This document shows positions 14,915 to 47,508 of a stretch of DNA of 54,187 bases, one piece after another. The DNA is from a virus: IMG/VR virus record IMGVR_UViG_3300043436_000647, positions 1 through 54,187 of that record; one strand, 5' to 3'. The translations under genes were made by a program, and so were the position numbers. The notes under the pieces were generated by a model. The model saw nothing but the letters and a program-made list of their open reading frames with translations, had not been told where the DNA came from and ran no database searches. The first letter of the stretch is position 1; each line of letters starts with the position of its first letter.

Positions 14915-17900
14915 ATGGATAACAAGATCAATCAGAATGTAGCAGGTTTAAACCTTGATTCGGTTAATTACCAGATCAAGGAGAACATGATTACGTTTGC
15001 TCTAAACGCAAACATTCAGTCTCATGATGGTAACTCTACCACATACACTAATGAACCTTCTAACCAAATCTGTTATGATTTTACAACTAGTTATCCTGGC
15101 TATAGAATAGTAGGCACACTTAATATTACAGAACAATCTAAGTTAATTGTATTCCTAGCTCATCCTGATGGACGTTCCTTAATAGGTGAGATAACTAACT
15201 TAAGTAAAGATTGTACTAGTCTTATAGAAACAGAAAAAGATTGTGGATGTATTTCTGGAACTGTTGTTACAAACGTAGTTACAGAAGATAGTTCTTGTTG
15301 TTTGTTTACTCCTTTAGTAGTCGACAACTGTTGTGACTGTACAGACTGCTATAGATACGATGTACAGGCTACAGACAACCAACCTTTTACAGTTGTATTT
15401 GTAGACTGTAATGGAGTAGAAACAAGTGAGACGTTTCCGTCAGGAATAGGAACTTTTACAGCAAAACGAAATAGATTTATCTTACCTGTTAATGTAGAGA
15501 TTCTATATTCAATCCTAGACTCTCAAGGAACATGTACTCCTAAGAGTGCTCCTTGTTGTTTGGGTTTGTCTCCAGACTTTCCTGTTTACTCAGAATACAG
15601 AGTAGATAACTGTGAGACTAAGGTTTACTTTATTGCTCGTAATATACAACCTCGTTATTTCTCATTAGAAGAGCCTTATGGCAGAGATCAATGTGGAGAT
15701 GCCATTGACTGTATTACAGACTCTTGTGAACGCTTAAAACTATTTCCAGACTTCTGCCAACCTGATATCTATCCTACTGCGGTAGACTCAGGAGGAACTT
15801 TAAAAGGTGGAGTATATTCTTTCTCTCTTGCTTACGCAGATGAGAATGGTAAAGAACTTACAGACTACGTAGATTTCTCTAACCCGATTCCAATCTTTGA
15901 GAGGGCTATTACTGAACAGACTGAATACGAAACCTCTCAGTCTATTAGAGTTTCTATAGATCACAGTACAGCAATCTTTGATTACTTTAACTTAGTTGTA
16001 GCTGAGAACATTAACGAAGTAACTACATACCAGTTGGTAGGTACTTATAGAGTCAACCAATCTACCTACAGAGATTCTTTGGTTTATACAGGAGATTACT
16101 CTTCTACTTTCTCTTCTATTGTTCCTTTGATTCGTAGTCCTCACTACGAGACTGCTGAGATTATTGAAAAGCAGAATGACATTCTGATGTTAGCTGACTT
16201 AGTAGAAACTCCTAAGTACAATTTTCAACTATTAGCAAACCAGATTAAACTTCGTTGGGAAACAGTTAAGATGCCTGTAGATAATAAGTTTGACTTTTCT
16301 AATCCAGAGATTGCTTATTTCTTCCGCACTTACCAGAGAGATGAGGTTTATCCTTTTGGTATTAAGTTTAAACTAAAGAACGGAAAGTATACAGATGTAT
16401 TCCACATTCCTGGTAGAGAAATATTTGTAAACTCTAACGAAGAAGAATTACTTTACTCTTCTAGTAATCCTGATGCTTTTGGTACATCTAATGATTGTAT
16501 TGTAACTACAGCACAACCTAGATGGAAAGTTTATAACACAGCTACTACAGGACTTACTCCTCCAAACAATACTCCTTCTTTGCAAGAAGTTCAATACTCT
16601 TGTAAGATTACTGTTGAAACATCTGGAGAGTTTGCTTACTGGGAGTCTACTGAAACTTATCCTTGTTATGAGGATGTTTGGGGAACCTTAGCAGGTAAAG
16701 CTATACGTCACCACAAGTTTCCTGAGAATGCTAAGTCTCACATCCATGCAGATGGAGATGACTTTATTTATCCTATTGGAGTACGTATTTGGAATGAGTC
16801 TTTATTTGAAGGCATACTAGACCAAGAAACTGTTTACGATCCCTTAAACACTTACGGTAATCATCAGATTCCTGTGAAGGAACTTATCTGTGGTTACGAG
16901 TTAGTAAGAGGTAATCGTGTAAATAACAAATCAGTTGTTGCTAAGGGACTTATCTATGATGTAGGAACTTTTATAAATGCTAAAACTCAAAAGTCTTACT
17001 ACTATCCTAACTACCCCTATAACTCTTTAGAGGATGATCCATACATTAAATCTACTCCTGATTGGTATAATAAAGCAGATAGAGGCATTGAGGAGGATCA
17101 GTACGGAATGGAATTGCATAAAGGATTTAATACTATTGGATCTCGCTATACATTCCACTCACCTGACACACACTTTCAGTATCCTAAAATCGGTACAGAA
17201 CTTAAACTAGAAACTGTAGAATACGGTAAAGTACAAGGACACTTTGTTCCTGTATTAGATCACCCTAAACATAAGTTTTTAACAATAGCTGATTATACTA
17301 CTGCTGCAACACTCGCTAATGCATTAGCTCTGGCATTTGAAAGTGATACAGCCGTAGATACTACCGTTCCACCTCCTCCTGGAGTAAGTACAACTGTTAG
17401 TAATAAATCTAAAACAGATGCACTTTCTATTATAACTAACAACCAAGCGTTTATAGACTTAATAGAAAAGTTAATTCCTTTAGCAAACTTTGCTTATCAG
17501 TTTAACTCTGTTGGGGAATATAAAAGATTCTTACCGATTACTACAGTAGGTAATAGAAGAAGATTCTTAGACATTGGACTTTACGCTAATGATAAGATTG
17601 TAGAACTGAATGATGACAAACCTATTCATAACAGATTAAGAGAGACTTCTGTTTATCTTAAGACAAACGGATCTTTCTCTACAGAATATGCAAGTATCAT
17701 AGATAATAGTCGCTATACTATTGGACAAAAAAACTTAGCAAAGGATCCAGAGCAGATAGTAGAATCTGATACTAGAGCCTACTATGCTTCTATCAAGAGA
17801 GACTTTCCAAATCAGTATGGACAAATAGAAAACATTAGATATGTTTCTACTGGATATTCTTGTTCTGTATATACAGATATCTCAGGAACACTTAAAATTA

Positions 17901-19996
17901 AAACTAAGTACTATCCTGCATTCGGTGGAGACACTTACATTAATAAGTTTGCACTTAAGCGTAAGCACTCTTTCTTTACTCGTAACTTAGCTAACTTACC
18001 AGCTAAAGTAGATAATGTTCCTTTTGATTATTGGCTGTATCCTAACTTAGGCTACCCTACTTACTACATCGGAGAGTCTCCTGAAGATTTAAGTTCAGTT
18101 GGTGCCGAAACAGCAATAGCTGGGATTGTAGCAGCTGCGGCTGCGGCATTAGCTGGAGGAGTTGTTACAGGAGCTTTAGTAGCAGGTGGTGTCTTAAATG
18201 CTGCTCTTACAGGAGTATTGGCTTCAATCTACAGTTTGTTTGTAAAGAAGAATAATCTAGATGCAGATCCTCAACCTTACTTCTATCAGAAAGGATTCTT
18301 CTACACAGCTTCTTATGGTATTCCAGTATTCTATGTAGAGTCTGACATTAACGTAGACTTACGTCATGGAAGAAATGAATTAGAAGAAAACTTCTATCCT
18401 AACGTAGGAGATGGTATCCCAGATGATTGGTTGCATGAAGTAAACGTACCTATTAAGTTTGATAATTTTTATAGTTACAATGCTACTTACTCTGCACAGA
18501 ACTTAAGTCCTAACTTTCCATATAGATTAAAGTACCCTAAATTAGAGTGTTTGTCTATTCACCATAACCGTGTAATTTACTCTGATCCTGCAAACTCTTC
18601 TAACTATCTTTCAGATGCTTGGAGAGTATTCCGTCCAGGCAATTTCTATGACTTCCCTAAGCAAGGAGGACGCTTAATAGATTTAAACGCAGGAGAGAAC
18701 GAAAGAGTACATGCTAGGTTTGAAAACACTACTAAGGTCTACAACTCTCGTATTACTTTAACTACTACTTCCCCTTATCAGTTAGAGATTGGAAGTGCAG
18801 AAATGTTCAAACAAAAACCTGTAGATTTAGCTAAGACTGATCTAGGTTACATAGGAACTCAACACAAAGCTTATGTTAAGTGTGAGTACGGAACATTCTG
18901 GGTGGATGCTAAGCGTGGACATATCTATCAGTTGACAGGTGAAGGCTTTAACGAGATTAAAACTGAAAACAACTTTAACTGGTTTAAGCAAAACTTACCA
19001 TTTCAAATTCTTAAAGACATTCCTAATGCAGACATCGACAATCCCCCTATTGGATTAGGAATTGTAATGGGATGGGATGAAAGATACGAGAGAGTATTTA
19101 TTACTAAACTAGACTACAGAGTTAAGCCTGAGTATAGACCTGGAAGTCCTTCAGTAGTTAAGTATATTACAGACACTTCAGATAGCAACTATCGTAAGTA
19201 TGTTTTAGATAGTGGAAGTATTGAGGTAGAGATTACTTTTGGTGATCCAGCATTCTTCGAGAATAAATCTTGGACAGTTGCCTACTCACCTAAGTTAAAG
19301 AACTTTATTTCTTTTTACTCTTTCCTTCCTAACTTCTTTGTTCCCCAACTAGGTCACTTCCAAACCATAATCAATACTTCTACAGGAGCGTCTACTTGGA
19401 ATCATAACTTGTCGCTTTACAGTTATCAGACTTATTACAATATACTCTATCCTTATATAATTGAGTATAATGTAAACTCTTTCCCACAAGTATCTACAAT
19501 CAACTCTGTTACTTTGATGCAGGACATTCAAGAATACTATTCTGATTACGAGTACTATTCTTTGTCTACTGCTAACAAGAAGAACTTAGCAAACTTTACT
19601 AAGGCTATCATCTATAACAAAGAGCAGTCTTCTGGTATCATTAAGTTGATCCCTGAAGAGTTTGGTAACACAAGACAGAAGATTACCTATCCTAGAATGA
19701 CAGCAACAGGTATAGAAGCTCTTATCTCTCGTAGAGAACACTTGTATACCTTTAATGGATTTTGGAACGTTGCAGCTCAAGGAAATGGTCAACCTTTATG
19801 GTCAACTCAGTGGAGTGACTTAGTTACTCAATACCCTATAGACAAAGTACCTAACACTAAGAGTGTAAGACCTGTGTCTGTATCTTATCAGAAGTCTAAG
19901 ATCAAGTCTGACTTTGCTAAAGTAAGATTGATTCAGGATCAATACTCTAGATTTAAGTTTATTAACACCATTCAAATAACCCAAACCAACCCATAA
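14915..19996 (+). CDS. Giant tail-hub / muzzle protein (P22 gp10-like slot)
   Basis: A 1693-residue protein. The N-terminus (INQNVAGLNLDSVNYQIKEN) and the beta-propeller-like, Asp/Tyr/Thr-rich body match the long crAss tail tubular/muzzle proteins that gate DNA exit. Residues about 100-270 are cysteine-rich (many CC and CxxC pairs). Residues about 1063-1112 (nt 18101-18250) are an Ala/Gly/Val segment with almost no charge, strong enough to span a membrane. The C-terminal 500 residues are Tyr-rich beta structure ending in FINTIQITQTNP. It overlaps no neighbour and is followed by a ferritin-like gene after 4 bases. Family call by position, size and N-terminal resemblance. Confidence 0.72.
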   Translation: MDNKINQNVAGLNLDSVNYQIKENMITFALNANIQSHDGNSTTYTNEPSNQICYDFTTSYPGYRIVGTLNITEQSKLIVFLAHPDGRSLIGEITNLSKDCTSLIETEKDCGCISGTVVTNVVTEDSSCCLFTPLVVDNCCDCTDCYRYDVQATDNQPFTVVFVDCNGVETSETFPSGIGTFTAKRNRFILPVNVEILYSILDSQGTCTPKSAPCCLGLSPDFPVYSEYRVDNCETKVYFIARNIQPRYFSLEEPYGRDQCGDAIDCITDSCERLKLFPDFCQPDIYPTAVDSGGTLKGGVYSFSLAYADENGKELTDYVDFSNPIPIFERAITEQTEYETSQSIRVSIDHSTAIFDYFNLVVAENINEVTTYQLVGTYRVNQSTYRDSLVYTGDYSSTFSSIVPLIRSPHYETAEIIEKQNDILMLADLVETPKYNFQLLANQIKLRWETVKMPVDNKFDFSNPEIAYFFRTYQRDEVYPFGIKFKLKNGKYTDVFHIPGREIFVNSNEEELLYSSSNPDAFGTSNDCIVTTAQPRWKVYNTATTGLTPPNNTPSLQEVQYSCKITVETSGEFAYWESTETYPCYEDVWGTLAGKAIRHHKFPENAKSHIHADGDDFIYPIGVRIWNESLFEGILDQETVYDPLNTYGNHQIPVKELICGYELVRGNRVNNKSVVAKGLIYDVGTFINAKTQKSYYYPNYPYNSLEDDPYIKSTPDWYNKADRGIEEDQYGMELHKGFNTIGSRYTFHSPDTHFQYPKIGTELKLETVEYGKVQGHFVPVLDHPKHKFLTIADYTTAATLANALALAFESDTAVDTTVPPPPGVSTTVSNKSKTDALSIITNNQAFIDLIEKLIPLANFAYQFNSVGEYKRFLPITTVGNRRRFLDIGLYANDKIVELNDDKPIHNRLRETSVYLKTNGSFSTEYASIIDNSRYTIGQKNLAKDPEQIVESDTRAYYASIKRDFPNQYGQIENIRYVSTGYSCSVYTDISGTLKIKTKYYPAFGGDTYINKFALKRKHSFFTRNLANLPAKVDNVPFDYWLYPNLGYPTYYIGESPEDLSSVGAETAIAGIVAAAAAALAGGVVTGALVAGGVLNAALTGVLASIYSLFVKKNNLDADPQPYFYQKGFFYTASYGIPVFYVESDINVDLRHGRNELEENFYPNVGDGIPDDWLHEVNVPIKFDNFYSYNATYSAQNLSPNFPYRLKYPKLECLSIHHNRVIYSDPANSSNYLSDAWRVFRPGNFYDFPKQGGRLIDLNAGENERVHARFENTTKVYNSRITLTTTSPYQLEIGSAEMFKQKPVDLAKTDLGYIGTQHKAYVKCEYGTFWVDAKRGHIYQLTGEGFNEIKTENNFNWFKQNLPFQILKDIPNADIDNPPIGLGIVMGWDERYERVFITKLDYRVKPEYRPGSPSVVKYITDTSDSNYRKYVLDSGSIEVEITFGDPAFFENKSWTVAYSPKLKNFISFYSFLPNFFVPQLGHFQTIINTSTGASTWNHNLSLYSYQTYYNILYPYIIEYNVNSFPQVSTINSVTLMQDIQEYYSDYEYYSLSTANKKNLANFTKAIIYNKEQSSGIIKLIPEEFGNTRQKITYPRMTATGIEALISRREHLYTFNGFWNVAAQGNGQPLWSTQWSDLVTQYPIDKVPNTKSVRPVSVSYQKSKIKSDFAKVRLIQDQYSRFKFINTIQITQTNP

Positions 19997-20000
19997 TATC

Positions 20001-20381
20001 ATGAAAGAAAAAGAACTCTTCACAACAGTTAAACCCGAAATAGTACTAGGACAGTTATTCCAGTCTAGGGACATCATTCACTTAGCTCATTTACAAACAA
20101 CTTCGTTTAGTGAGCATAAAGCTTTAGATGGTTACTACTCAGAAGTAATTGGTCTATTAGATGATTTAGTAGAAGCATACTTCGGAACTATTGGAAAACG
20201 CTTAAACTTTAAAATTCCTGGATCAGAGTATATGAATGCTAAAGCTCATCTTACTTACATGAAAGATTATGTAATGAAGCATCGTAATGTATTCGGAAAC
20301 GAAAACACCCACTTACAAAACATCGTAGATGAGATCATTGCTTTGATTACTTCTACTTTGTATCAATTGACACTAAACTAA
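20001..20381 (+). CDS. Small helical protein of the DUF5856 / ferritin-like type
   Basis: A 126-residue all-helical protein. It carries HLAHLQTTSFSEHKALDGYY, then EVIGLLDDLVEAYFG, and later helices with KAHLTYMKDY and HLQNIVDEIIALI. The spacing of His, Asp, Glu and Tyr across four helices resembles Dps/ferritin-like small proteins, and short proteins with the HLQT-(S)-SEHKALDxYY pattern are common in crAss-like and other large phages. The metal-binding role is inferred from the fold and is not shown by a diagnostic motif. It sits between the muzzle and the basic proteins, so it may be packaged with them. The leader before it contains AATAACCCAAAC (19975-19986). Confidence 0.55.
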   Translation: MKEKELFTTVKPEIVLGQLFQSRDIIHLAHLQTTSFSEHKALDGYYSEVIGLLDDLVEAYFGTIGKRLNFKIPGSEYMNAKAHLTYMKDYVMKHRNVFGNENTHLQNIVDEIIALITSTLYQLTLN

Positions 20382-23335: not shown

Positions 23336-25993
23336 ATGTTAAGAAGCAATCTTTTTAAGAGATTCAGTAAGAAGAAATTCGAAGATGCAGGTACTGTAAC
23401 AAAACCTGAAGAAACAGGTTTGTCTATACCTACCGTAGAAGATATTAAAAAGAACTTTGGTATTAATAATCCCTTTGTTCTAGATGGTTATACTACTCCC
23501 GAACAACCTAAGGGTACTGTTAGTACTACTGAGAGTTCTTTTGCCCCAGGTACATTTAGTGACCTAGTTAAGAGTCCTATGTTTACTACAGGATTCTCTC
23601 CTTTGAATCCTTACGATATTAATCCTAAGACTCCAGAACCAGAGCAAGGTCCAATGACTAAGGAACAGAGTGATTACTTTGTTCTAGATCAAAGTATGCC
23701 AGAAACTAAAACTCCTGAAACCAAAGAAGATAACAGACCTGCTATGGTCTCTTTAGGCTTACTAGGATTTAATGCTTTACTTGGTAAGAACGAAGATTTA
23801 AAGAATCAACAACAATTTATCGAATCAATTCAACAAAGAAACTCTAAACCTATTAATGACTATAACTTTAAGTACGGTCCTAATAGCAGTGGAGGTACAG
23901 AGTATCAACCTACAATCAAAGCCGAAATGGGTGCAAAAATAAACAAACGTTATGCTAGTGAAGGCATGAACGATGTAGAGATTGAAGGAGGAGAGTTTAT
24001 CCAACTTCCAAACTTAGAGACAGAAATGGCTGAAGGGCCTTCTCACGAGAATGGAGGTATTCCTACTAATCTACCTAATCAGACTCGTGTCTACTCTAAC
24101 AACTTAAAGCCAGAAGGTTCTAAGAAAACTTTTGCTCAGATTGCTAAGAACTATGATACTACTTCATATAAGAAAATCTTAGACAATAACTTCGCTAAGC
24201 AAGTAGATAAAGATACTGCACAGATAATGATGCAAAGAAACCAAAAGATCTTAGATCAATTGTTTTCAGATCAACAAGCAATGAATGGCAACTCTAACGG
24301 AGAATTAGAGGCTAAGAATGGAGCAGGTATTAATAACCCAGGATTCAAATCATTACCTGATTATGTACAAGCTAAGATTATGTCTAACATGGCTGATGGA
24401 GGAGTAGATAATCCACTAGACGAATTGCCTAGAGTAAAAGCAATTGATCCATTAAACTTAGCAGCTATGAGTACTCTTAATGCAATTGATCCTGCACAAG
24501 AGTCATTTATGCCTACTGCTATGCCTGGTGGTCAAGTACCTCCTACTAATAAGATGGAATATTTTGAGAGAGCATACTCTGATATCCTTTCTCAGAAGTT
24601 AAAACCTAGAGCAATGATGATTGATCCTAGTGGTGATCTTCCTTCTGTGCAAGCTATTGATCCTTTGAATCTAGCTGCTATGACTACTTTAAACCAGTTA
24701 GAGTCTCAGTCTAACGTAGATGCACAAGGAAACCCTGTTTCTAGTGCTTCTCCTGCAATGACTGCAGCAGCTAAGACTTCTAACATTGCAGCTCGTAGTA
24801 AAAATGCAATGTTTGATCCTACCAAACCTGCAATGCCTGCACACACTGGTCCTGAAAAACAATTCTTAACAGGTATAGATCCTAGTATAGATCCAAGTTT
24901 ACAGATGGTTCCAGGAGTTCAACCTAGCTTAGGTACAGGTGTATACGGAGAGGCTTCTAACATTGAGACCTTTACTAAGAATTATGGTTGGTATTTGGAT
25001 GACTTAAAAGCAAGTGGAGATACATTCGATCCTAAAAATGAAGGTAGTGTTCGTAGAGCACAGGTTGCCTTTACAGAAGAAGCTTACAATAGATTTAGAA
25101 GAGAAGGACTGTCAGAACAAGAAGCAAGAACTAGAGCAGATGAAGTAGGATTTACTGCAGTAAAAGGTTTACAGAATTCTGTAGATGACATGTTAGGATT
25201 GTATACAGCAACACGTGTACTTCCTGAAAGCAAAAAGACTCCTACTCCTGCTACTGAAAATAAACCTTTTATGGATTTGCTTGACGGAGAAACTCCTAAG
25301 CCAGAAACAGCTAAGTCTACTACTACTAGAACAGGAGAAACTCCAAAAGGAACTCCAGGAAGAACCTTTACTCCTGCGGGATCTCCTGCTAAAGGTAAAT
25401 ATATTCCAGGACAGTTTCCTTTGTATCAGGCTATTCCTGAAGCTATGGGATTAGCTCAAGCACAACAGATCTATCCTTATGCTATTCCTGAGATTGACTC
25501 ACCTTACGTACGTCCTCAGACATTAAACATTCAAAGTCAATTACAAGATATTGATAGCATGGCTACTGCAACTCAAAGAGCAGGAGGAGATCCTTTGACT
25601 ACTTACATTGCAGGATTAGACGCTAAACAAAAAGCTTTCCAAGCTAAGCAAAACTTTGATGCTCAGGGACGTTCTCAAGCTGATATGGCTAATGCTCAAA
25701 CTAGAATGCAAGCTGATCAAATCAACGCTCAGTACTTTGATCGTGTATATAATAATTTAGTAGGTCAAGCAAGAGATGCACAGTCTGCAGAAAAACAAGC
25801 AGCTATTGCAAGCGTTACAAATAAAAAGGCTAAATTTACACAGGACGAAACTAAGAAGTCTGCTTACATTAATGCTTTAATGGAAAACTACGATATAGAC
25901 TCTAAAGGTAACTTTACTCTAAAGCCAGGTAAGAATCCTGTTATAAATTCTAATCCAGCAAAAACTGCCAAGAAAGGCATGTATAAAAAATAA
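23336..25993 (+). CDS. Large virion (cargo) protein with the VEIEGGEFIQLP / GPSHENGGI block
   Basis: An 885-residue, mainly disordered protein, Pro-, Thr- and Gln-rich. Residues about 205-300 have the recognisable block VEIEGGEFIQLPNLE, GPSHENGGIPT, then KTFAQIAKNYD, seen in large proteins near the RNAP genes of crAss-like phages. An internal repeat pairs LPRVKAIDPLNLAAMSTLN (nt about 24425-24482) with LPSVQAIDPLNLAAMTTLN (about 24640-24695). A C-terminal coiled segment (about residues 735-840) is Gln/Ala-rich and the end is Lys-rich. Its neighbours are other large cargo proteins, so it may be packed in the capsid and ejected. No catalytic motif seen. Confidence 0.6.
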   Translation: MLRSNLFKRFSKKKFEDAGTVTKPEETGLSIPTVEDIKKNFGINNPFVLDGYTTPEQPKGTVSTTESSFAPGTFSDLVKSPMFTTGFSPLNPYDINPKTPEPEQGPMTKEQSDYFVLDQSMPETKTPETKEDNRPAMVSLGLLGFNALLGKNEDLKNQQQFIESIQQRNSKPINDYNFKYGPNSSGGTEYQPTIKAEMGAKINKRYASEGMNDVEIEGGEFIQLPNLETEMAEGPSHENGGIPTNLPNQTRVYSNNLKPEGSKKTFAQIAKNYDTTSYKKILDNNFAKQVDKDTAQIMMQRNQKILDQLFSDQQAMNGNSNGELEAKNGAGINNPGFKSLPDYVQAKIMSNMADGGVDNPLDELPRVKAIDPLNLAAMSTLNAIDPAQESFMPTAMPGGQVPPTNKMEYFERAYSDILSQKLKPRAMMIDPSGDLPSVQAIDPLNLAAMTTLNQLESQSNVDAQGNPVSSASPAMTAAAKTSNIAARSKNAMFDPTKPAMPAHTGPEKQFLTGIDPSIDPSLQMVPGVQPSLGTGVYGEASNIETFTKNYGWYLDDLKASGDTFDPKNEGSVRRAQVAFTEEAYNRFRREGLSEQEARTRADEVGFTAVKGLQNSVDDMLGLYTATRVLPESKKTPTPATENKPFMDLLDGETPKPETAKSTTTRTGETPKGTPGRTFTPAGSPAKGKYIPGQFPLYQAIPEAMGLAQAQQIYPYAIPEIDSPYVRPQTLNIQSQLQDIDSMATATQRAGGDPLTTYIAGLDAKQKAFQAKQNFDAQGRSQADMANAQTRMQADQINAQYFDRVYNNLVGQARDAQSAEKQAAIASVTNKKAKFTQDETKKSAYINALMENYDIDSKGNFTLKPGKNPVINSNPAKTAKKGMYKK

Positions 25994-46522: not shown

Positions 46523-46525
46523 TTG

Positions 46526-46951
46526 ATGAAGACCCTTTTAGTAACTATCACCACAGTATGTGCCTTTTTGGGCACATATTTTTTAAATCTAACTGCAGAT
46601 AACGCAGAACAATACTTAGCGATTGTTGCTGTTGTATTTGTAGATGGATTTTTTGGTGTATGGGCAGGTACTAAGAAGATTGGTTTTCAAACAAGAAAAG
46701 CAGTTAAAGTACTTCAGACTTTGTTTGCTTGGGTAATGATTCTTTCTGCTATCTTAATGGTAGAGAAAGGATTTGATGGTACGTTCTGGCTTTCAGAAAC
46801 TTTCTGTGCTCCTTTTATCGTCTTCCAACTTATTAGTGCTCTTAAGAATGCTAACACAGTAGGAGTAATAAACAACAGTGTACTATCTCAGATCTTAGCA
46901 AAGATAGATCAACATAAATTTAACCACGATAATGAAAAACCTCTCGATTAA
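46526..46951 (+). CDS. Holin of the phage_holin_4 type
   Basis: A 141-residue membrane protein that would form holes in the inner membrane at the time of lysis. I use the ATG at 46526; a TTG one codon earlier (46523) directly follows the previous stop and is less likely. Hydrophobic segments occur at residues about 3-24, 30-48, 66-82 and 92-108. The element DGFFGVWAGTKKIGFQTRKA between segments two and three matches the D-x-x-x-G-x-x-A-x-x-x-x-G pattern of phage_holin_4 proteins, with a charged C-terminus (KFNHDNEKPLD). It overlaps the start of the next gene by 20 bases, as in lysis cassettes. I saw no endolysin near it. Confidence 0.72.
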   Translation: MKTLLVTITTVCAFLGTYFLNLTADNAEQYLAIVAVVFVDGFFGVWAGTKKIGFQTRKAVKVLQTLFAWVMILSAILMVEKGFDGTFWLSETFCAPFIVFQLISALKNANTVGVINNSVLSQILAKIDQHKFNHDNEKPLD

Positions 46952-47249
46952 ACTTAATATTATCTTTTTCTTCATCATTGCTTACTTACTTTTTAAGTAT
47001 GAGTATGTACAGGAACAAGATACTAACCAAGTAATATCTTTTATTGATTCTATAGATAAACAAAACGATACCTACTTTGAAAAGATTGACTCTCTAGAAC
47101 ATATAAAGCACGAAGAGTATTTCCGTTACGAACAAATCACCCTAAAGTATGACACAATTCAGATTGCTATTGACACTATGCCTGATATTGACGGCACAAA
47201 ATTCTTACTCACAATCAGTAGACAGCTTACCCTTAAAGGAGTTGAATGA
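46932..47249 (+). CDS. Inner-membrane spanin-like protein (Rz-like)
   Basis: A 105-residue protein overlapping the holin by 20 bases. An N-terminal membrane segment (LNIIFFFIIAYLLFKY, residues 8-23) is followed by a charged helical domain rich in Asp/Glu/Ile/Tyr. This one-TM plus periplasmic-helix layout and its place next to the holin fit an i-spanin. Its last 101 bases overlap a second ORF in another frame (47149-47508), as in Rz/Rz1 pairs. Spanin sequences are poorly conserved, so the call is by architecture and position. Confidence 0.55.
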   Translation: MKNLSIKLNIIFFFIIAYLLFKYEYVQEQDTNQVISFIDSIDKQNDTYFEKIDSLEHIKHEEYFRYEQITLKYDTIQIAIDTMPDIDGTKFLLTISRQLTLKGVE

Positions 47250-47508
47250 TGAGTTCCTAAAAGGAATTCAAGCACGTGAGAGAGTAGTAAGTCTTAAGAA
47301 GATTATCAAGACAGATAGCGTTCAGTTATCCTTGTATAAAGATTCTATTATCCCTAACTATAAAAAGGCTTTAGATACCGCTAAAGTAGAGATAGTTCGC
47401 TTAGATACTAAAGTTAGGTCTCAAGCAGAAACAATTAAAACTTTAAAGAACGTTTTGAAAGGCGGGTTATTTGCTATAGCTTTGTTAACCATAGGGTTAA
47501 TACTTTAA
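47149..47508 (+). CDS. Overlapping secreted partner with C-terminal membrane anchor, spanin-like
   Basis: A 119-residue protein that starts inside the previous gene in a different frame. Residues 1-22 are a Sec signal peptide (FRLLLTLCLILTAQ) with a likely cleavage near SYS. Residues about 30-100 are a Lys/Asp-rich coiled coil. Residues 103-119 are a hydrophobic helix (GGLFAIALLTIGLIL) at the extreme C-terminus. No lipobox is present, so it is not a classical Rz1 lipoprotein. With a signal at one end and an anchor at the other it might bridge the envelope, or face its partner across the periplasm. The overlap supports that both are real. Confidence 0.5.
   Translation: MTQFRLLLTLCLILTAQNSYSQSVDSLPLKELNDEFLKGIQARERVVSLKKIIKTDSVQLSLYKDSIIPNYKKALDTAKVEIVRLDTKVRSQAETIKTLKNVLKGGLFAIALLTIGLIL

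Follow-up and report, generated by a model that had tools for sequence, protein, structure and literature searches.

The crassvirus muzzle protein encoded in the virus sequence analyzed in this study (IMG/VR record IMGVR_UViG_3300043436_000647; the whole stretch of 54,187 nucleotides is referred to here as the window) carries a predicted hydrophobic helical hairpin in its crass domain, at one of two sites in which the most hydrophobic stretch of related muzzles is found in the great majority of cases. Given the measured hydrophobicity of the hairpin and its likeness to the L-loop of phi29 gp9, membrane insertion is judged to be its most likely role, and on balance we favor the view, with considerable reservation, that opening of the muzzle lets the hairpins enter the membrane of the host.

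Identity of the muzzle protein

The muzzle gene (14915..19996, + strand) encodes a 1693-aa protein which, judged by its sequence and predicted fold, is the tail-tip gatekeeper of crassviruses. The protein matches Pfam family PF25731 (crAss_MUZ) at 8.5e-40 with 137.2 bits (curated cut-off 27) and PHROG 37948 (virion structural protein) at 1.4e-119, and other genes of the window encode the major capsid protein of a crassvirus and a portal of P22-like type. A plain sequence search of the PDB returned no relative of the whole muzzle protein, but a fold search did find one. The AlphaFold2 model of residues 225-1420 (1196 residues, from an alignment of 51 sequences; mean pLDDT 82.8, pTM 0.77) matched the phiCrAss001 muzzle 7QOK_A in Foldseek (E 8.8e-25, probability 1.00), and comparison by VIA gave a Z of 21.1 against 7QOK (4.8 Å over 770 residues) and of 21.5 against 7QOL_P (764 residues).

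In the phiCrAss001 structural paper, the muzzle is described as a hexamer at the tail tip; a loop of propeller blade 4 forms its gate, and its crass domain is thought to touch the cell surface (PMC10172136). An earlier note on this DNA, which drew attention to the hydrophobic segment, had called the product a tail-hub protein; that label is imprecise, as Pfam and fold both indicate a muzzle and the tail-hub proteins THA and THB of crAss001 are the products of other genes, gp38 and gp39 (PMC10172136). Its further description as a tail gate protein suits a gatekeeper at the tail tip but does not extend to the segment itself, the gate of crAss001 being the loop in blade 4.

Several features of the muzzle locus and its counterparts in related loci (numbered with the prefix L) are also recorded here. 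Immediately 3' of the window muzzle gene, positions 20001-20381 encode a 126-aa protein matching phrog_858 (starvation-inducible transcriptional regulator; 1.8e-22), while in L038 (csAssE-Sib) an annotated TnpB-family gene (933-2156) lies immediately 5' of the muzzle gene. The muzzles of L005, L006, L015, L025 and L028 contain an insertion of approximately 370 residues past window residue 122, and those of relatives such as L042-L049 are likewise approximately 2070-2090 aa in length. The L006 muzzle is split into two ORFs, with the break near window residue 1275 (a frameshift or an assembly error). The muzzles of L099, L100 and L101 (cr273, cr115 and cr109) contain 9, 15 and 18 in-frame stops, respectively, under table 11, and a stop codon is probably read as an amino acid in the structural genes of these three phages.

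Composition and predicted structure of the hairpin

Residues 1063-1112, the segment to which the earlier note had pointed, begin at base 18101 and end at base 18250 exactly as it had placed them, and the AAAAAALAGG that it had read there is present from residue 1073 onward. The 50-mer contains 15 Ala and 8 Gly and is a genuine Ala/Gly/Val/Leu run; it is not, however, uncharged throughout as had been claimed, since E1065 on one side and K1111-K1112 on the other flank an uncharged core of 45 aa (residues 1066-1110; 18110..18244, + strand).

By AlphaFold2 and Kyte-Doolittle hydropathy, this core belongs to a hydrophobic helical hairpin at residues 1061-1107 (18095..18235, + strand), hereafter loop B. 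Helix 1 is predicted at residues 1061-1084 (24 residues; 837-860 of the modeled fragment; 18095-18166, + strand) and helix 2 at residues 1087-1107 (21 residues; 863-883 of the fragment; 18173-18235, + strand), and in the model both are of sufficient length to span a bilayer. The pLDDT is 59-71 in the hairpin and 90-95 in its flanks. Rough sums of Hessa center values, not position-corrected, are +1.1 kcal/mol for helix 1 and +2.7 to +4.0 for helix 2; these positive sums suggest that helix 2 alone would make a poor transmembrane helix. The hydrophobic moments of the two helices are low (Eisenberg scale, 0.04 and 0.13), which points to helices that are evenly hydrophobic rather than amphipathic, and small-xxx-small patterns of Ala and Gly are present in the hairpin.

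Loop B was placed on the phiCrAss001 muzzle (gp44) by profile alignment, as a simple MAFFT alignment with crAss001 had misplaced the FGGDT region when inspected by eye. The loop maps to a deletion at gp44 962-963, which falls inside the G-H insertion (940-1012) assigned to the crass domain in the crAss001 paper (PMC10172136).

Within a single protein, the signal of the segment against chance is modest. The Kyte-Doolittle 19-mer peaks in the hairpin are 2.18 and 1.85; a 19-residue mean of 2.18 was reached in 335 of 5000 composition shuffles of the window muzzle, and a 45-residue uncharged run appeared in 18 of 5000. Peaks of at least 1.6 were also found in 31 of 117 upstream ORFs of related loci, so that Kyte-Doolittle peaks alone are not diagnostic, and following the shuffle and upstream-ORF controls such a peak was dropped as sole evidence. 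In a scan of 41 ORFs of the window, peaks of 1.5 or above were also seen in two further large ORFs (566 aa, peak 1.57; 2009 aa, peak 1.83) and in four small ones (98-142 aa). Three of the four small ORFs are probably lysis genes, judged by position and hydrophobicity, and window positions 46523-47508 contain three overlapping small ORFs whose strongly hydrophobic segments number one to three and which probably constitute a holin/spanin-type lysis cassette.

The strong evidence for the segment is instead comparative, namely its recurrence at two sites and its low charge despite free drift of the sequence. In full-length relatives, the stretch 5' of the hairpin (residues 1001-1050; 17915..18064, + strand) is highly conserved, with a mean identity of 97%, and the block at residues 1051-1100 has 36% identity, the lowest in the protein, with insertions and deletions. 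Of the 36 relatives in the first alignment, 33 extend across the segment, and L033, L034 and L036 stop short of it. Across 14 sequences, charged residues make up a mean of 3.9% of positions 1061-1107, compared to 12.9-27.4% of the other variable stretches measured in the muzzle, and one loop-B subclade (e.g., L008 and L011-L013) has a few charged residues inside the hairpin. The hydrophobicity of the hairpin is thus maintained while its sequence drifts.

Two alternative sites for the hydrophobic loop

A second site, loop A, lies at residues 791-853 of the window muzzle (17285..17473, + strand; AlphaFold2 and 19-mer hydropathy) and is only weakly hydrophobic here. The model places helices at fragment residues 567-581 and 612-629 of this loop, with the tip (586-606) at a pLDDT below 50. 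The best 19-mer in loop A is 1.17 in the window muzzle, compared to at least 1.45 in most relatives that do not have a hydrophobic loop B. In L086, a muzzle of the loop-A type, AlphaFold2 (40 sequences) predicted two helices of 30 and 48 residues at the loop A site; the 51 and 40 sequences in the two model alignments are a selection from the loci.

With site boundaries drawn on the window muzzle at residues 786-857 (loop A) and 1050-1127 (loop B), the most hydrophobic 19-mer fell within one of the two loops in 55 of 57 non-redundant muzzles, although the loops represent 8.4% of residues. The exceptions were crAss001 and the Spirosoma-genome locus L092. This set remained after 36 of 93 muzzles had been dropped because they fell short of 1200 aa or shared 90% identity or more with a muzzle already kept. 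Because the loops had been delimited after these data were viewed, new relatives were gathered as a held-out test with preset boundaries, which match the earlier ones to within one residue. The held-out collection comprised 83 loci, reduced to 79 by removing L111, L114, L123 and L191 (contigs already used), and then to 67 by removing nine near-copies and three muzzles that shared 90% identity or more with the first set; single-protein scans with L085 and L038 yielded few loci. The peak again fell in loop A or B in 60 of the 67 held-out muzzles (loops 12.1% of residues), which come from the same wider group and represent no independent lineage. A value of 1.45 was reached in loop A or B by 61 of them and in neither loop by six; where this value was reached, it was in loop A only, except in L158, where both loops qualified.

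Three of the loci are noteworthy for their origin or state. The L076 muzzle has glycine-rich hydrophobic stretches in both loops and is a possible intermediate between the loop A and loop B states. The muzzle relatives L091 (Chitinophaga sp. YR573) and L092 (Spirosoma oryzae) are located in bacterial contigs, one of them 4.8 Mb in length, which suggests crass-like phages that are either integrated or co-assembled. In the tree, L092, whose muzzle is without a hydrophobic loop, forms a long branch.

A muzzle tree was built without the loops, with crAss001 and L092 omitted from the careful version. Loop B dominates in a clade of 28 rows and in L080, which is nested among loop-A relatives, and loop A is found in the remaining deep lineages. 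A tree on which loop B originated only once was rejected (p-AU 3.5e-7, a nominal value, as a first tree had served to define the group). The main hairpin site thus changed at least twice, with loop B becoming the main site at least two times. Loop A is probably the older of the two, given its presence in the other deep lineages, with the qualification that the root is uncertain and rests on the long crAss001 branch.

Distribution of hydrophobic elements in the muzzle and cargo protein C1

The ejected cargo protein gp45 (C1) of phiCrAss001 has a predicted transmembrane helix at residues 136-158, and the authors of the structural paper state that they expect it to insert in the host membrane and help form a channel (PMC10172136). 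A homologue of C1 is encoded in the window at 23336..25993 (+ strand; 885 aa), where an HMM built from nine gut C1 proteins matched at 2.9e-5 (a small set was searched); the reciprocal HMM recovered cr115 at 2.7e-10 and cr109 at 1.5e-9, while the other seven gut C1 proteins were unmatched. The gene is downstream of the muzzle gene on the same strand with four ORFs between them, whereas gp45 of crAss001 directly follows gp44. The best 19-mer of the window homologue is 0.72, and a hydrophobic element of transmembrane strength is therefore absent from it.

Gut-type crassviruses were represented by 12 phages of the Steigviridae, Suoliviridae and Intestiviridae. A hairpin of this kind was absent from the muzzles of all 12, in which the best 19-mers reach 0.95-1.55. 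The highest muzzle peaks in this group include those of cr116 (1.55 at residue 64, with a second peak of 1.49, at residue 580, that may be near the loop A site) and crAss002 (1.53, inside a stretch with charged residues). In 11 of these phages, the exception being phi14:2, the first cargo gene encodes a hydrophobic element (19-mer 1.22-1.73), mostly glycine-zipper-like. The element was missing from all 25 C1 homologues of loop-B phages (peaks 0.37-0.96) and all six of loop-A phages (0.50-1.05); in the held-out set, eight of nine homologues peaked at 0.68-1.06 and the ninth ORF (L126) at 1.41. These counts refer to ORFs recognized as homologues and not to one ORF per phage. The muzzle hairpin and the C1 element are thus inversely distributed, in a comparison that spans few families and that shared ancestry explains in part. 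In L092 and phi14:2, both the muzzle hairpin and a clear element in the cargo protein are missing, indicating that such an element is either not always needed or goes unrecognized.

Possible functions of the hairpin

We infer that membrane insertion would proceed as follows, including its timing, the hexameric arrangement and which membrane is crossed. The hairpin would be an insertion at a turn of the crass domain, and a hexameric muzzle in the window phage would present six copies around the exit, kept against the tip or the lumen in the virion. Contact with the cell surface would open the muzzle, allowing the hairpins to swing out, enter the host membrane and help cargo proteins and DNA across, in the manner of the phi29 gp9 L-loops. 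In gut crassviruses, the hydrophobic segment of the ejected C1 probably has a comparable job, which in the window phage would be borne by the muzzle; the hairpin possibly replaces the C1 cargo helix. A broader proposal, toward which we lean less than we doubt it, is that the Crassvirales have one movable membrane-piercing helical element, located in C1 in the gut-type phages or in muzzle loop A or B in mostly environmental groups, with the muzzle acting as the first membrane pore.

The chief rival is that the six hairpins pack into a hydrophobic bundle, located between subunits or spanning the lumen, which shuts or helps assemble the muzzle and never enters a membrane. The small-xxx-small patterns fit close packing of helices, both loops belong to the crass domain of what is described as a hexameric gatekeeper (PMC10172136), and the L-loops of phi29 are themselves reported to bundle in the tube before ejection (PMC6542822), so that one element could serve as plug and pore. 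However, packing in a bundle usually leaves little freedom of sequence or length, while the identity of the hairpin is the lowest in the protein and its length varies, and a seal does not predict the loss of a hydrophobic element from an ejected cargo protein. Purely as an alternative to insertion, we regard this role as unlikely, but sealing followed by insertion could both hold in sequence.

Considerably less likely still is that the segment is a rapidly changing loop, exposed for contact with a surface receptor, whose variability would reflect changes of host range. The location of the least conserved part of the protein in a tail-tip domain thought to touch the cell surface (PMC10172136) agrees with such a loop, but the near-zero charge and the Ala/Gly/Val/Leu make-up would be unusual for it when other variable stretches are 13-27% charged, and the same composition occurs again at a second, non-homologous site. 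Similarly improbable is an ordinary hydrophobic insertion buried in a soluble fold without special function: such 19-mers are common in other structural proteins of these phages, as the upstream ORFs demonstrate, and one is not rare for a 1693-aa protein of this composition, yet recurrence at two fixed sites in both sets of relatives, low pLDDT between well-predicted flanks and a level of conservation too low for a buried core all argue against it.

Insertion into the host membrane, which the earlier note had proposed to happen on firing and to help form the DNA channel, is thus supported in part and remains the reading we prefer. It bears on how crassviruses breach the cell envelope; in the portion of the crAss001 paper concerned with ejection, the authors note that mechanisms may vary as cargo sets vary (PMC10172136). 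No description of a muzzle hairpin in crassviruses was found in those parts of the open-access literature that were searched. The solved muzzle structure could not have revealed one, because its phage does not have the hairpin. The device itself is known from phi29, while its crass-domain location, the existence of two sites for it and its possible exchange with a cargo protein appear to be new, presenting a case of one feature changing site within a protein and possibly between proteins. The element is defined, at 47 residues, and the cultured loop-A phages Cellulophaga phi4:1 and Leptolyngbya phage Lbo-JY46 allow testing.

Comparison with known systems

The closest structural relative, phiCrAss001 gp44, shares family and fold with the window muzzle over the modeled 1196 residues but, unlike it, has a hydrophobic hairpin at neither site (best 19-mer 1.07). 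Partial fold matches to the window muzzle were obtained with the SU10 nozzle 7Z4B (Z 13.5, 215 residues) and T7 8E4G (Z 8.9, 193 residues), and no segment of T7 gp12 is comparably hydrophobic (best 19-mer 1.08). Phages with T7-type nozzles use separate ejection proteins. Reliance on separate ejection proteins is described specifically for SU10 (PMC9509320), and the crAss001 paper identifies the ring-joining domain and the propeller as the part in common with T7-type nozzles (PMC10172136).

Hydrophobic elements proposed to enter membranes offer a second set of comparisons. The gp45 (C1) element of phiCrAss001 is likewise a hydrophobic, Gly-rich crassvirus element proposed by its authors for membrane insertion; it sits in an ejected internal protein, whereas the window hairpin sits in the tail tip. 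The tail knob loops of Staphylococcus phage Andhra, whose host is Gram-positive, resemble the window hairpin as proposed membrane-entering loops, and their extrusion into the host membrane as 12 helices has been put forward (PMC9710869).

A further likeness is to the L-loop of phi29 gp9, which like the window hairpin is a long, nearly charge-free, Ala/Gly-rich helical loop of a tail-tip protein. By the same measure, the L-loop has a peak of 1.29 and an uncharged run of 53 residues, so that the window hairpin is more hydrophobic (2.18 versus 1.29) and almost as long. The surrounding proteins differ, and the phi29 host is Gram-positive. Gp9 was not among the listed fold and sequence matches of the window muzzle, although the two may still share a homologous tail-knob fold. 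A pore-forming loop of phi29 gp9 was reportedly the subject of a 2016 Nature paper. The phi29 L-loops are described as membrane-active; before ejection they lie in the tail knob tube as a bundle of helices, and in emptied virions they have exited and are arranged as a helix barrel that is hydrophobic on its outside (PMC6542822). If the broader proposal of a movable membrane-piercing element holds true, hairpin-bearing crassviruses would breach the envelope by means of a tail-tip protein, as phi29 does in Gram-positive bacteria.
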